Assembly: GCF_000701345.1 (NCBI RefSeq)
Contig: NZ_JNIJ01000034.1
Location: 1 to 64,000, forward strand
Reading direction: 5' to 3'
Length of the DNA: 64,000 nucleotides
Origin: Bradyrhizobium sp. URHD0069
GTDB taxonomy: Bacteria; Pseudomonadota; Alphaproteobacteria; Rhizobiales; Xanthobacteraceae
The notes beneath the pieces are model-generated. The model had not been told where the DNA came from. It saw only the letters and a list, made by a program, of their open reading frames with translations, and searched no databases. This document shows positions 45,933-52,890 of the stretch, piece after piece (position 1 is the first letter of the stretch; each line of letters starts with the position of its first letter). Made by a program: the position numbers and the translations under genes.

Positions 45933-47519
45933 TCAAATATGCTGAGTAAGGATTCTTCCCGGGCGGGCGTCCGGTCGCGGCGCGATATCGACCGACCACA
46001 GCGCACGATCATCGACATCCTTCAAGGTCACCGTCATGACGCCGGACTGACCGTCGATATCGACGCGGCCGAAGAACTGCAGCCCAAAACACGGGGCGAG
46101 ATTTTCGCCTTGTTGCGTGCTGCAGCCCTTCTGAAACATCGCCGCCGGGCCGAACGTGTTATCCAGTTCGGCAGGGGGCCATGTCCCCGCATGAAGCGGA
46201 CCCGAGACGAATTCCCAGAACGGTTCGAACTCCTGAAATACCGCGCGGTTCGGATCGTAGTAATGTGCGGCGGTGTAATGCATGTCGGCCGTCAGCCACA
46301 CGGTATTTCGGATGCCGGCGCGTTTCATGAATGACAACAGATCGGCAATTTCGTGCTCGCGCCGTTCCGGCGGTCCATAGCCGAGCGCGATCGCGTCTTC
46401 GCTGATCAATCCGATCGGCAGGTCCGCGGCAATGACCTTCCAGGTCGCGTCGGATGCCGCGAGTTCGCGCTTCAACCAGGCCAATTGGGCCCGGCCCAGA
46501 ATGAAAGTGTCGCTGCGGTCGTCGCGCTTGTTCCAGCTCGAATCGCGGTAGCTGCGCATGTCGATCAGAAATACATCGAGCAGCGGTCCGTATCCTATCC
46601 TGCGATAGACGCGGCCGGCCTGGCTGGAGATGGCGCGGATCGGCATGAATTCATGAAACGCACGGCGTCCGCGCTCAACCAGTCTGGATGCGCCGTCCTC
46701 GGCGTAACCGGTCTCGTCGGCGGTACCGATCGGCGACCAGTCGTTGGTCACTTCGTGGTCATCCCACTGCGCCAACATCGGCACCTGCGCATTGAAGGCG
46801 CGCAGATTGTCATCGAGCAGGTTGTATTTGTAGTTGCCGCGAAACTGCGCCAGGCTGTGGGCAACTGCGGATTTCTCTTCTATCACGATATTGCGCCAGA
46901 TTTCTCCGTTTGGAAGTTTCAACTCGGAAGGAATCGGACAGTCGGCGTAGATGTGATCGCCGGAATGGATGAAAAAATCCGGACGGTTTTCCAGCATGGT
47001 CTTGTAGGTTCGCATGCCGCCGCGGGTAGGATCGATGCCCCAGCCCTGGCCTGCGCTATCGCCCGACCAGACAAACGATATCGAAGCTGGCTCGAGCGGC
47101 GCTGTCCGGAAATGCCCGACCTGCGTCTCTCCTGATATCCCGCTTTCACCGATGTCTTCAAACCGCACGCGGTAGAAAATGTCCTGACCGGGCGGGAGAC
47201 CTTCAAGCAGCACCTTCGAAGTGAAGTCATGCTCCGGCAATGCTTCCGATGATGCGACGCGAAAAATTGACTTTAAGCTCTCGACGGTCGAGCATTCCAC
47301 CCGCAGGCGCGCCGGGCGATCGGCTCGCGCCCACACTACCGCGGAGCCCGCGGATACGTCGCCCGATGCAAGTCCGCTGGCGATCTGTGGACGATCTGCG
47401 GCGCGGCTGAGATAGGGTTTGGCGAGACCTCCCAATCCCACCAATGCGACCGTGGATGCTGAGCGGACCAGCAGCTGACGTCTGGTCAGAGCTTGCTTCG
47501 CACGTATCGCAATCGCCAT
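45933..47519 (-). CDS. phoD: Alkaline phosphatase D / PhoD-like phosphodiesterase
   Basis: A 528-residue Tat-exported phosphatase. The signal TRRQLLVRSASTVALVGLGG is a twin-arginine type. An N-terminal Ig-like domain (SGLASGDVSAGSAVVWARAD) precedes the PhoD catalytic domain: SGDSAGQGWGID, HSGDHIYADCPIP, WDDHEVTNDW, DMRSYR, and LTADMHYTAAHYYDP near the C-terminus. PhoD hydrolyses phosphate mono- and diesters in the periplasm for phosphate scavenging. No Pho box was identified. Full length. Confidence 0.92.
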   Translation of the reverse strand: MAIAIRAKQALTRRQLLVRSASTVALVGLGGLAKPYLSRAADRPQIASGLASGDVSAGSAVVWARADRPARLRVECSTVESLKSIFRVASSEALPEHDFTSKVLLEGLPPGQDIFYRVRFEDIGESGISGETQVGHFRTAPLEPASISFVWSGDSAGQGWGIDPTRGGMRTYKTMLENRPDFFIHSGDHIYADCPIPSELKLPNGEIWRNIVIEEKSAVAHSLAQFRGNYKYNLLDDNLRAFNAQVPMLAQWDDHEVTNDWSPIGTADETGYAEDGASRLVERGRRAFHEFMPIRAISSQAGRVYRRIGYGPLLDVFLIDMRSYRDSSWNKRDDRSDTFILGRAQLAWLKRELAASDATWKVIAADLPIGLISEDAIALGYGPPERREHEIADLLSFMKRAGIRNTVWLTADMHYTAAHYYDPNRAVFQEFEPFWEFVSGPLHAGTWPPAELDNTFGPAAMFQKGCSTQQGENLAPCFGLQFFGRVDIDGQSGVMTVTLKDVDDRALWSVDIAPRPDARPGRILTQHI

Positions 47520-48672: not shown

Positions 48673-50754
48673 ATGTTGACGGAGGGCAAAACGGTTTGGC
48701 GCCGGGCCAACGCGCACCGAGTCAGTGTCCTGAACGACGGCGCGGCATACTTTGGCACTCTGAGGCGCTGCTTGCTCGCCGCGCAGCGGTCGGTATTCAT
48801 CATTGGTTGGGACATCCATAGCGAAACGCGATTGGTCGGGCCGAGCGGCAAAGCAAGCGACGGATGGCCCGAGCAACTGGGCGAACTGTTCGAAGCTCTC
48901 CTGGCGCGACGCCCGGATTTGAAAATTTACCTGCTCATTTGGAAGTGGCCGATTTTATACGCGAGCGAGCGCGAGTGGTTCCCCGCCTTGAAATTTGGCA
49001 AAGCAGGTAATCAGAGGCTGAAACTCTGTCTCGATGATTGCCTGCCGATCGGATCTGCCCAACACCAGAAAGTCGTCGTCGTGGACGATGCTGTGGGTTT
49101 TGTCGGCGGCTGCGATCTTACAATCCGGCGTTGGGACACTAGCGCGCATCTTCCGACTTCGAAGTCCCGCGTCGACCCTCACGGGGTCCCCTACCCGCCC
49201 TTCCATGACGTCGAAATGATTATTGATGGCGAAGCCGCACGAAACCTTGCTGAATTGGCTCGCTATCGATGGTCCTGCGCCAATTGCGGAGAAATTCCAC
49301 CGATCGCGCCGGTGGGGGACCCATGGCCCACGGATCTTGTGCCTGATTTCCGGGATGTGATGGTCGGAATAGCGCGAACGGAACCCGCATGCGATGGCCG
49401 AGCGGGCATCACCGAAGTGGAGAAGCTGTTCCTCGCTTCAATCGATGTCGCCGAACAAGCAATCTATATCGAGAATCAATTTCTCAGTTCCGAGACGATC
49501 GCCAAAGCGCTCGTGAAGCGATTGCGAGAAAGACCGGCGCTGGAGGTCTTGTTGGTCGCGCCGAAAACGCATGCATCCTGGCTCGAAGCGAGGACCATGC
49601 GGAACGGACGCCTCGCCTTCATGAAGGTATTTGACGAGGCCGGACTTCGAGATCGGGTGCAGTTGCTCTATCCGGAGACGTGCGACGGGAAAGCAACCGC
49701 GGCCGTCATGGTTCACGCCAAGGTCATGATTGTCGACGACCGAATCCTTCGCGTGGGCTCTGCCAATCTCAACAACCGCTCCATGGGCGCGGATTCGGAA
49801 TGTGACCTCGCCATCGAAGCTCGTACCGACGCCGAACGAGAGAGGATCGCTGAAATACGGAATATGCTGCTGGGAACATATTGCGGGGTCAACGCCGCTG
49901 CCATCCGGGAGCAACTGACCGGCAATACTTCGCTGTTGAGCATCGCCGCAAATCTTTCGGCAGACGGATATAGGCTCCGACCGGTCGAGGACGGCAAGCC
50001 GGATCGGGCGGAGATCACTCAAGTTGTAACGCCTGTGGCGGACCCTCCCGGTCCATTAGGCCTTGAGCGCGCCGCGGCTGCGACATTTCCGGCATCGATG
50101 AAGATCATTGCACTCCTCGTTGGGATCTGCCTGCTTGCTGCGAGTTGGCGCTTCACGCCACTTGACGCGTACACTGACTCAGAAGCATTGATGCGAGCCT
50201 TTCGGTCATTTCAGGGATCGCCGATCGCGCCGCTTATTGCCATCGCTGCATTCGTCCTGGGCGGCTTCATCCTGTTTCCCGTGACGGTGCTTATTGCTGT
50301 CACGGCAGCCGCACTTGGCCCTTGGCTTGGGTTCACCTCGGCAGCGAGCGGCGTATTGGCGAGCGCTTCGCTGATCTATGCGATTGGGCGAATCCGTGGC
50401 CTCGAACCGATGAAGTCGCTGCTTGGCCCTCGCCTGATTCGCATTCAAAAGAACATCGTCGGAAACGGGGTCATGGCTGTCGCACTGATCCGGATGATTC
50501 CGGTGGCGCCATTCTCGCTTGTTAACATCGCAGCCGGAGCAATGGGCATCAGGTTTGTCGACTTTATCGTCGGCACCGTGTTGGGCATGACGCCGGGGCT
50601 GCTGGCGATGTCAGCCTTTGGCGCTCAGATTTCCGATCTTCTGGCGCGACCCACCTGGTCCAATGTAGCAATCCTTTTGATATGTGTGACCGCATGGCTG
50701 CTGTTCTCGATCACCGCCCAGTTCGTTGTAACCCGATTGAGTCGGCACTCGTGA
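48673..50754 (+). CDS. Phospholipase D-like / VTT-domain membrane fusion protein
   Basis: A 693-residue protein with two parts. Residues 1-470 are a PLD-superfamily phosphatidyltransferase/hydrolase with both HKD motifs: HQKVVVVDD (His131, Lys133, Asp138) and HAKVMIVDD (His348, Lys350, Asp355), each followed by a GG/GSAN-type strand (VGSANLNNRSMG). Residues 475-690 are a VTT (TVP38/TMEM64/DedA-like) membrane domain with about 5-6 helices and the signature LIRMIPVAPFSLVNIAAGAM. It may make or cleave phospholipid head groups (for example cardiolipin) and move lipid across the inner membrane; this is inference. It overlaps the EEP gene by 4 bases. Confidence 0.93.
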   Translation: MLTEGKTVWRRANAHRVSVLNDGAAYFGTLRRCLLAAQRSVFIIGWDIHSETRLVGPSGKASDGWPEQLGELFEALLARRPDLKIYLLIWKWPILYASEREWFPALKFGKAGNQRLKLCLDDCLPIGSAQHQKVVVVDDAVGFVGGCDLTIRRWDTSAHLPTSKSRVDPHGVPYPPFHDVEMIIDGEAARNLAELARYRWSCANCGEIPPIAPVGDPWPTDLVPDFRDVMVGIARTEPACDGRAGITEVEKLFLASIDVAEQAIYIENQFLSSETIAKALVKRLRERPALEVLLVAPKTHASWLEARTMRNGRLAFMKVFDEAGLRDRVQLLYPETCDGKATAAVMVHAKVMIVDDRILRVGSANLNNRSMGADSECDLAIEARTDAERERIAEIRNMLLGTYCGVNAAAIREQLTGNTSLLSIAANLSADGYRLRPVEDGKPDRAEITQVVTPVADPPGPLGLERAAAATFPASMKIIALLVGICLLAASWRFTPLDAYTDSEALMRAFRSFQGSPIAPLIAIAAFVLGGFILFPVTVLIAVTAAALGPWLGFTSAASGVLASASLIYAIGRIRGLEPMKSLLGPRLIRIQKNIVGNGVMAVALIRMIPVAPFSLVNIAAGAMGIRFVDFIVGTVLGMTPGLLAMSAFGAQISDLLARPTWSNVAILLICVTAWLLFSITAQFVVTRLSRHS

Positions 50755-51491
50755 TACCGGCCACGATCCGCCTCATGACCTGGAACGTGCACGGCACATT
50801 CAGTCTCAATCCACGATTCGACCTCGAAGGCGCCATTGCCGTTATCCAGAAATGGTCTCCACAAATTGTGGGGCTTCAGGAGATCGATTCACGAGGCCGG
50901 AATGACAATCCGTTTGCGGTGCTGGAGGACGCTCTAGGCGGCCATAGCGTGGGCGCTAAATCCATTGTGACTACCGATGGCGACTATGGCCAGATGCTGA
51001 TCAGCCGCTGGCCCTGGGTAAAACCGCCCCTCGTCGAGGACATCTCGTACCGTGAACGGGAGCCGCGTCGAGCCATCGCTGCAGATATTTCGACGCCTTT
51101 TGGTGGATTGCGGGTGATCTCGACCCATCTGGGTTTGAGCATTCGTGAACGTCACGAGCAAGCTCAGCGGCTCCTGCAACTAGCCAGTGAGACAGGGTAT
51201 CCAGCTATCGTGCTTGGAGATTTCAATGATTGGTTCTGGATCAATTCAGTCCGCGGCGCGCTTGCCGAAAGATTTCCAGTTCGGACACAGCATAGGTCAT
51301 TTCCGTCCCGGCTGCCGCTCATGAGACTTGATCGAATTTACGGCTATCGAGTTCGGCTGGTCCGCACCTTTGCGGATTCGGCGGCCCGTTCTATTTCAGA
51401 CCACCTGCCGGTTATCGCGGACATCACGCCGCTTCACATCCTCAATGCTGCCGAGCCGTCCATAGGCGGACTGCGCGCCGAATCCCTTTAG
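50751..51491 (+). CDS. EEP-family phosphodiesterase (endonuclease/exonuclease/phosphatase)
   Basis: A 246-residue metal-dependent phosphodiesterase. GTG 50751 overlaps the PLD/VTT stop codon as GTGA, so the two are translationally coupled. Motifs: MTWNVHGTF (Asn), VGLQEIDS (metal Glu), VISTHLGLS, AIVLGDFNDWF (Asp/Asn), and SDHLPVIADI (catalytic Asp-His). Many EEP proteins hydrolyse phospholipid head groups, inositol phosphates or DNA. Coupling to a PLD/VTT protein favours a lipid or phosphate-ester substrate. No signal peptide is seen, so it is probably cytoplasmic. Confidence 0.92.
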   Translation: MIPATIRLMTWNVHGTFSLNPRFDLEGAIAVIQKWSPQIVGLQEIDSRGRNDNPFAVLEDALGGHSVGAKSIVTTDGDYGQMLISRWPWVKPPLVEDISYREREPRRAIAADISTPFGGLRVISTHLGLSIRERHEQAQRLLQLASETGYPAIVLGDFNDWFWINSVRGALAERFPVRTQHRSFPSRLPLMRLDRIYGYRVRLVRTFADSAARSISDHLPVIADITPLHILNAAEPSIGGLRAESL

Positions 51492-51752: not shown

Positions 51753-51829
51753 TGGTCGGAGTGGCAGGATTTGAACCTGCGACCCCTGCGTCCCGAACGC
51801 AGTGCTCTACCGGGCTGAGCCACACTCCG
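51753..51829 (-). tRNA. tRNA-Pro (CGG)
   Basis: Read on the minus strand it folds as a 77-nt cloverleaf with acceptor stem CGGAGTG / CACTCCG. The anticodon arm is ctgcg-ttcggga-cgcag with anticodon CGG, and the T-loop is GGTTCAAATCC. An encoded CCA end is present. A long protein frame crossing it is not real. Confidence 0.95.
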
Positions 51830-51897
51830 ACAAGAACGCGGCTTATAGCCTTGGCTTTCACGCACCGCAAGAAGCCGAATTGAGGACGCCAATCTCC

Positions 51898-52890
51898 GTG
51901 AATGTAGGCCTGAAAACGCAGATTCTGCCGGCCGGCGAGGCCGCCGTGGCCGCGGCGGGCCGGGCTCTCGCGGAAGGCGCTCTGGTCGCGTTCCCGACCG
52001 AGACGGTCTATGGCCTCGGCGCCGATGCCACCAACCCGGCAGCGATTGCGCGGCTCTATGAGGCCAAGGGCCGGCCCGCGTTCAATCCGCTGATCACCCA
52101 TGTCGGCGACCTCAGCGCTGCGACCCGGATCGGGCGCTTCGACGCCCGAGCAATCGCGCTGGCGGAAGCATTCTGGCCGGGGCCGCTGACCCTGGTATTG
52201 CCGAAGACAGGGGACTGCACGGTGGCCGATCTCGCCACCGCCGGGCTCGATAGCATCGCGATCCGGGTACCCGCCCATCCGGTGGCGCGGGACATTTTGC
52301 GGGCGTTCGGCGGGCCGGTGGTGGCGCCATCGGCCAATTTGTCGGGCCACGTCTCGCCGACGACCGCAGCCCATGTGCAAAGCGACCTCGCCGGGCGCAT
52401 CGATCTGATCGTCGACGGCGGCGCGGTCGCGGTCGGGGTCGAATCCACCATTGTCGGCTGTTTTGACGAACCGATGCTGCTGCGTCCCGGCGGTGTGCCG
52501 CGCGGCGAGATCGAGCGCGTGCTCGGCCGCGCGCTGCTGCAGCCGCCTGAGGATGCCAACAGCGATACGGGCCAGCCTTTGGCGCCGGGCATGCTGGCCT
52601 CGCACTACGCGCCGCGCACGCGCGTGCGGCTCAATGCCGGGAGGATTGACGCCGGCGAGGCGCTGCTGGCGTTTGGCTCCAATGCGGTGCCGGGAGTTGA
52701 CGCGGCGACCGCGGTGCTGAATTTGTCCGCGCAGGGCGATCTCACCGAGGCCGCCGCCAATCTTTTCGGTTATCTTCGCGCGCTCGACGCCAAGGGCGCG
52801 CGGGCCATCGCGGTGATGCCGGTGCCGCATCACGGGCTCGGTGAAGCCATCAATGACCGGTTGCGCCGCGCTGCGGTGGGGCGCGAGTGA
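51898..52890 (+). CDS. tsaC: L-threonylcarbamoyladenylate synthase (Sua5/TsaC)
   Basis: A 330-residue protein that makes threonylcarbamoyl-AMP for tRNA t6A37 modification. YrdC-type domain: LVAFPTETVYGLGADATNP, YEAKGRPAFNPLITHV, FWPGPLTLVLPKT, VPAHPVARDIL, APSANLSGHVSPTT. A C-terminal Sua5 domain is also present (PGMLASHYAPRTRVRL), so it is the long Sua5 type. The GTG at 51898 begins MNVGLKTQI; upstream starts run into tRNA-Pro. It leads to the FAD oxidase with a 4-bp gap, suggesting cotranscription. Confidence 0.92.
   Translation: MNVGLKTQILPAGEAAVAAAGRALAEGALVAFPTETVYGLGADATNPAAIARLYEAKGRPAFNPLITHVGDLSAATRIGRFDARAIALAEAFWPGPLTLVLPKTGDCTVADLATAGLDSIAIRVPAHPVARDILRAFGGPVVAPSANLSGHVSPTTAAHVQSDLAGRIDLIVDGGAVAVGVESTIVGCFDEPMLLRPGGVPRGEIERVLGRALLQPPEDANSDTGQPLAPGMLASHYAPRTRVRLNAGRIDAGEALLAFGSNAVPGVDAATAVLNLSAQGDLTEAAANLFGYLRALDAKGARAIAVMPVPHHGLGEAINDRLRRAAVGRE

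Follow-up and report, generated by a model that had tools for sequence, protein, structure and literature searches.

We describe here a two-gene locus in Bradyrhizobium sp. URHD0069 (contig NZ_JNIJ01000034.1, positions 1 to 64,000; this whole stretch of 64,000 nucleotides is referred to as the window). The first gene (48673-50754) starts with ATG and encodes a protein of 693 residues, in which a phospholipase D (PLD) region is followed by a VTT membrane domain. The second (50751-51491) encodes a 246-residue YbhP-type protein of the endonuclease/exonuclease/phosphatase (EEP) superfamily, and both genes, with all the features named in this paragraph, lie on the forward strand. The initial annotation of this region had described two intact HKD motifs, a VTT domain in the same chain and a GTGA overlap between the genes, and all three were found. 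The HKD motifs are HQKVVVVD (residues 131-138, 49063-49086) and HAKVMIVD (residues 348-355, 49714-49737), with the triads H131/K133/D138 and H348/K350/D355, and an IYIENQF motif lies at residues 264-270 (49462-49482). The fusion protein matches PLDc_2 (54.5 bits) and the PLDc active-site motif (52.4 bits, in two stretches), both above the gathering cut-offs, and its VTT domain matches VTT_dom (PF09335) at residues 535-651 (50275-50625) with 70.4 bits against a cut-off of 33.9, inside a helical membrane part that spans about residues 464-692 of the structural model. The second protein matches PF03372 with 72 bits, has its EEP motifs intact and lacks a hydrophobic segment. It had earlier been called an EEP phosphodiesterase, and the first half of this name stands; the second half goes beyond the family match, for the EEP superfamily is broader and spans phosphodiesterases, phosphomonoesterases and nucleases.

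The overlap occupies positions 50751-50754, where TGA is the stop of the fusion gene and GTG the start of the EEP gene. A longer EEP frame could begin at ATG 50682. An in-frame NTG start is found at the same overlap position in 38 of the 54 loci that have the EEP gene, and we therefore prefer GTG 50751 as the likely start; the EEP gene is probably translationally coupled to the PLD-VTT gene.

To what extent the two genes are inherited together was followed with homologues from genome contigs, from 59 related genomes in addition to that of the window, and from a 299-genome phylum sample that includes the window's genome. After exclusion of a locus cut by a contig end (L030), a weak match (L034) and two second copies (L055 and L060, of L001 and L045), there were 55 distinct fused loci, and EEP lies directly downstream on the same strand in 54 of them. 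Within the genus, a full-length fusion is present in 12 of 35 genomes, and EEP was found in the identical 12 (Fisher p = 1.2e-9); the remaining 23, among them G014 with a 206-residue PLD fragment, have no EEP at E <= 1e-20. In the phylum sample, for which the PLD-family and EEP lists were compared by hand, the PLD family occurs in 33 genomes (13 fused and 20 VTT-less), and EEP occurs in all 33 of these compared with 89 of 299 overall (p = 2.9e-20, uncorrected for relatedness). Relatedness inflates both p-values, and the within-genus test is the cleaner one. The pairing of PLD-VTT with EEP is far beyond chance, and the two genes form a conserved module.

The scan of genome contigs returned 33 relatives, including Alphaproteobacteria, Desulfobacterota and one Nitrospinota metagenome-assembled genome (MAG), and among named relatives a Tardiphaga MAG and a Bradyrhizobiaceae MAG stand nearest. 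It had been suggested that similar pairs occur in other proteobacteria; they do, and Desulfobacterota have the pair as well. Near full-length matches were also found on plasmids of Azospirillum, Cupriavidus, Caballeronia, Burkholderia, Mycetohabitans and the gammaproteobacterium Catenovulum, and 20 of 287 plasmid records covered at least 80% of the protein. Four annotated regions were opened, and in these a 'VTT domain-containing protein' adjoins an 'endonuclease/exonuclease/phosphatase family protein', names in the style of the PGAP annotation pipeline. No third gene conserved across clades was found among the 40 largest clusters of neighboring open reading frames from 32 loci; the other neighbor clusters were confined to one genus-level group or consisted of overlapping frames inside the module. 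On two Azospirillum plasmids (L186 and L193), eat-eutC-eutB, a set for an ethanolamine permease and ammonia-lyase, lies in the opposite orientation 1.7 kb past EEP, with phaZ between; this ethanolamine link turned up in a single genus and was hence not used as evidence.

The PLD region belongs to the eukaryotic PLD1/PLD2/PldA type, as judged from sequence and from the predicted structure. Both HKD motifs are kept in all 55 distinct fused homologues and in all 25 VTT-less homologues. The window protein also has the motifs [IV]Y-x-E-N-Q-[FY] and GS[AS]N[LI]xxRSxxxD[ST]E, which we take to be marks of eukaryotic-type PLD, and the alignments to solved PLDs agree; as strict patterns they occur in 48 and 54 of the 55 fused sequences, compared with only 6 and 17 of the 25 VTT-less ones. 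The closest solved structures by sequence are those of Pseudomonas aeruginosa PLD, human PLD1 and human PLD2, and in the alignments IYIENQF is shared by P. aeruginosa PLD and human PLD1. The AlphaFold2 model of the fusion has a mean predicted local distance difference test score (pLDDT) of 81 and about 90 in the PLD part; its fold matches are headed by human PLD1/PLD2, PldA and plant PLD-alpha, with the PLD3/4 nucleases and phosphatidylserine synthase further down. An identity as a ClsA- or ClsB-type cardiolipin synthase was considered and rejected, the NCBIfam scores being 29.8 bits against a cut-off of 281 for ClsB and 29.6 against 290 for TIGR04265, and the alignment of Escherichia coli ClsB to the fusion is essentially confined to the surroundings of the HKD motifs. 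The first hydrophobic segment of the window protein is at residue 467, the family average has none in its first 440 positions, and no export signal was seen; the PLD domain is for these reasons predicted to be cytoplasmic. In the window's own 6.8-Mb genome (G000), the only PF13091 matches are the fusion and one other frame of 778 residues on contig C14, which, guessing from its length, may be a polyphosphate kinase.

The VTT domain is assigned to the YdjX/YdjZ type and set apart from DedA/YqjA, because a profile built from the VTT parts of fused proteins gave best-domain scores of 76 and 62 bits with E. coli YdjX and YdjZ and of 13 and 9 bits with DedA and YqjA. We take YdjX and YdjZ to be members of COG0398 (TVP38). 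PF09335 is matched by all 28 homologues examined (E <= 0.001), and in their alignment 20 invariant columns fall at residues 520-645 compared with 3 at residues 388-519, which argues that the VTT core has been kept by more than the need for an anchor. According to PMC10127716, bacterial DedA proteins fall into three subfamilies, of which COG0398 stands nearest to TMEM41B and VMP1, two human scramblases; its members are described there as putative phospholipid flippases, with undecaprenyl phosphate an unlikely cargo. Two further observations concern this domain. The fused gene of genome G125 (L059:395-3213) is broken by an in-frame TAG within the VTT part, with EEP still next to it. In E. coli K-12, xthA, the gene for exonuclease III, itself a member of the EEP superfamily, is immediately followed by ydjX, which encodes a VTT protein of the TVP38 type (L085:2929-4501); this may be a coincidence.

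The EEP partner is classified as YbhP-type from its similarity to E. coli YbhP (31% identity and 79 bits over most of its length); the literature searched gave no tested function for this E. coli protein. Residues N12, E44, H126, D157, N159, D217 and H218, which we take to be the catalytic residues of EEP enzymes, are invariant in 23 of 23 sequences. The EEP model (pLDDT 91.5) resembles EEP proteins annotated without a function as well as Tdp2, a mannosyl-6-phosphatase, nocturnin and sphingomyelinases, the four named kinds all with Z scores of 20-25, and since such diverse enzymes all resemble it, the substrate cannot be read from the fold. PF23226, the EEP domain of PGAP2IP, a protein that acts in GPI-lipid remodelling, is matched by 18 of the 23 module EEP proteins, the window EEP falling outside this match at E <= 0.01. 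YbhP-type EEP domains also form the C-terminal part of longer frames, about 810-850 residues in length (L171:4288-6726, L176:5989-8532 and L192:4312-6780), and these frames partly match, over about 60 residues, the type I phosphodiesterase family PF01663, which is a possible hint at phosphoester chemistry for the YbhP-type group. At a Roseomonas mucosa locus (L017:7515-11840), a second, more distant EEP-like frame lies downstream of the module EEP. G039 has a stand-alone EEP gene (L191:5965-6663) that reaches 276 bits against the profile of the module EEP; genes for PLD, VTT or YbhN are absent within about 6 kb of it.

The strongest argument for a role in lipid metabolism comes from relatives in which a gene for a YbhN-type, MprF-like transporter stands in for the VTT domain. 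In a tree of 83 PLD domains, all different sequences (genus-mates may overlap with species from the genome contigs), one change separates the 55 fused from the 25 VTT-less proteins (support 65/92); this split recurs in 96% of 200 bootstrap trees, the tree being unrooted and some long branches being flagged by the program. Among the 25 VTT-less PLD loci, viewed with about 7 kb of flank per side where the contig allowed (much less at L109), EEP is present in 8, YbhN is adjacent in 4, and both are present in 3. The YbhN-linked loci belong to a VTT-less clade of five sequences (support 100/99) from the window's own order; YbhN adjoins PLD in four of them, and in the fifth genome (G223) YbhN lies beside EEP on another contig. 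The genes for PLD, an LPG-synthase-TM protein and EEP stand side by side on pRL12 of Rhizobium johnstonii and pSymB of Sinorhizobium meliloti, and a plasmid of Shinella carries PLD with YbhN, EEP being absent there. Six genomes were searched for YbhN-family genes and had 2 to 6 each, which makes a chance adjacency of PLD and YbhN unlikely. No YbhN was seen near any of the 55 fused loci, 24 of which had only about 1.5 kb of flank. Because YbhN replaces VTT beside PLD and EEP in some relatives, the two look like interchangeable membrane partners.

The same EEP type also accompanies other HKD enzymes. In E. coli K-12 the gene order is ybhP, clsB, ybhN, with overlapping ends. Among 40 EEP loci outside the fused units, hand-picked from 82 non-fused matches (8 more were seen separately, and 34 lay outside the survey), 25 adjoin a gene for a cardiolipin-synthase-like PLD, 10 of these 25 also have YbhN, and one of the 40 adjoins YbhN alone. 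These neighbors were found with E. coli ClsB as the query at 116-786 bits; eight of the 25 reach no more than 116-134 bits, PLDc_N being present in one of these eight, so that they may be other Cls types.

Taken together, we consider it fairly probable that PLD-VTT and EEP constitute a two-gene module for the editing and translocation of phospholipid head groups. Its domain content, intact motifs, pairing and co-inheritance, and the YbhN-type gene that replaces VTT in some relatives, are established. The N-terminal PLD, predicted to be cytoplasmic, would act through a phosphatidyl-enzyme intermediate to swap or strip the head group of a membrane phospholipid in the inner leaflet; the fused VTT domain would equilibrate the substrate or the product between the leaflets, to or from the PLD site; and the EEP protein, presumably cytoplasmic, would hydrolyze a phosphate ester of the same pathway, be it a head group, some by-product or the lipid that is produced. 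The activities, topology, substrates and direction of reaction in this scheme are all what we infer. An idea of a compact lipid module had accompanied the initial annotation, and two parts of it now have support, namely the lipid role, by comparison of the PLD, EEP and VTT subtypes, and the partnership with EEP seen in the survey of co-occurrence and fusion; the rest of it stays conditional.

Several observations weigh against this interpretation. One fused locus, L022, is without an adjacent EEP, and its genome has EEP elsewhere, in a frame of 823 residues. At 16 of the 25 VTT-less loci neither EEP nor YbhN lies in the fetched flanks, so that linkage to either partner is not obligatory. At 14 of the 40 non-fused EEP loci neither PLD nor YbhN lies alongside. 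The VTT part of the model has modest confidence (pLDDT means over 10 residues of 51-84, and 36 at the very end). For the EEP model, VIA-align ranks Tdp2, an enzyme of DNA end processing, above the sphingomyelinases, and the first 50 Foldseek rows include many Tdp2 structures and zero sphingomyelinase. A measured activity for any fused protein was not found.

The alternative that survives best, which we nevertheless consider unlikely, is that VTT is a mere membrane anchor, and that the tethered PLD and EEP degrade or remodel phospholipid of the inner leaflet without moving it. In its favor are the 25 VTT-less loci that keep both HKD motifs and the retention of EEP without an adjacent VTT or YbhN gene at L101, L103, L104, L106 and L107, the last of these with a stand-alone VTT gene at a distance of 5.7 kb. 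It agrees less well with the invariance of the VTT core residues across 28 homologues and with the fact that it is a translocase-type protein, YbhN, that takes the place of VTT in one clade of relatives. We regard it as improbable, still more so than a simple anchor, that the module acts on nucleic acids at the membrane, with the PLD as a NucT- or PLD3-like nuclease and the EEP protein as a nuclease or Tdp2-like enzyme. The EEP fold is near Tdp2, the EEP profile is weakly similar to Tdp2 and exonuclease III, and PLD3/4 appear in the lower part of the PLD fold list; however, the PLD is nearer to lipid PLDs in both sequence and fold, YbhP-type EEP proteins adjoin cardiolipin-synthase-like enzymes at 25 of 40 loci, and most module EEP proteins, although not that of the window, match the PGAP2IP profile. 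That the module is an accessory defence system akin to DISARM's DrmC, or kin to secreted PLD effectors, is very hard to credit, because the PADLOC DrmC models that match the PLD (40.5 bits at best, across 45 residues) and the patchy distribution of the pair within the genus are opposed by an NCBIfam DrmC score of 33.1 against a cut-off of 133 bits, by an EEP protein without a match in the PADLOC scan, which covered the module genes, and by the lack of a cross-clade third gene among the 40 largest neighbor clusters of 32 loci.

The surroundings of the preferred two-gene lipid module were also inspected. The module has a GC content of 0.58 and a GC content at third codon positions (GC3) of 0.60-0.66, and the next gene (51802-52890), whose product is Sua5/YrdC-like as judged by eye, has values of 0.69 and 0.81. 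The lower GC content and the patchy presence within the genus suggest horizontal gain or repeated loss of the module. A tRNA-Pro(CGG) gene (51753-51829, reverse strand) lies directly downstream. On the other side, a PhoD-like phosphatase with a PhoD_N domain (45933-47519, reverse strand) is transcribed away from the module, and its match to a twin-arginine signal is below threshold. This neighbor prompted a search for Pho-box control, that is, for a response to phosphate starvation, in which the consensus was compared with single-base shuffles in 31 upstream regions, one from the window and 30 from among the 33 genome-contig loci. The window scored no better than the shuffles and this control was rejected; L011 alone stood out, with 12 of 14 positions and 0 of 100 shuffles equal.

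The PLD shares its catalytic core, HKD pair and IYIENQF motif with PLD1/PLD2, plant PLD-alpha and P. aeruginosa PldA, which provide its nearest solved structures, and unlike these it is fused to VTT and paired with EEP. The VTT domain groups by profile score with YdjX and YdjZ of the COG0398 DedA/TVP38 proteins; PMC10127716 gives disulfide oxidoreductases as their commonest fusion partners, and the word 'phospholipase' has no occurrence in its text. We found no paper on a PLD-VTT fusion in searches that covered subscription papers and preprints thinly, and in the annotated records opened the fusion stands under domain names only. The substrate and role of COG0398 VTT/DedA proteins are described in PMC10127716 as an open question. 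The fusion ties a VTT domain of this type to a phospholipid-type PLD with a near-constant EEP partner, which gives a definite, testable prediction of the VTT cargo. With it, two different translocase domains, VTT and YbhN, can also be compared in one job.

The E. coli ybhP-clsB-ybhN genes offer a close parallel, as here too overlapping genes bring together a YbhP-type EEP protein, an HKD enzyme that modifies phospholipids and a membrane domain of the translocase type. They differ in gene order, in that the window PLD comes from another branch than ClsB, and in that the membrane domain of the window is a VTT fused to the enzyme, not LPG_synthase_TM. According to PMC9241728, a Salmonella clsABC mutant regains cardiolipin, and makes it in excess, when it receives the ybhP-clsB-ybhN operon on a plasmid, and ClsB has a broad transphosphatidylation activity; on these grounds we count the analogous operon as a lipid system. 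The rhizobial cluster of PLD, LPG_synthase_TM and EEP on pRL12 and pSymB has the same PLD family and the same kind of EEP as the window; VTT is absent from it, and its place is taken by a YbhN-type gene that stands by itself on the other strand.

MprF, in which a lipid aminoacylation enzyme is joined to a scramblase domain, is similar in that one chain would both edit a head group and move the lipid; in contrast to MprF, the PLD-VTT/EEP pair has no aminoacyltransferase or LPG_synthase_TM domain among its Pfam matches. PMC11980842 presents MprF as a promiscuous lipid scramblase, notes YbhN near cardiolipin synthesis genes, and calls the DedA and MprF transport domains 'somewhat interchangeable', an idea that the PLD-VTT/EEP module fits as a separate case. 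Lipid modules of an enzyme and a translocase are thus already known, in MprF and, by gene proximity, in the clsB operon. We tentatively propose, with slightly less than even confidence in the claim as a whole, that PLD-VTT with EEP is one form of a general, as yet unnamed bacterial 'edit and flip' system for phospholipids, whose three exchangeable parts are an HKD enzyme (either cardiolipin-synthase or eukaryotic PLD type), a phosphoesterase like YbhP and a domain for scrambling (either YbhN/MprF or COG0398 VTT), in which VTT would scramble phospholipid for that one enzyme and EEP would process the lipid or head group released.

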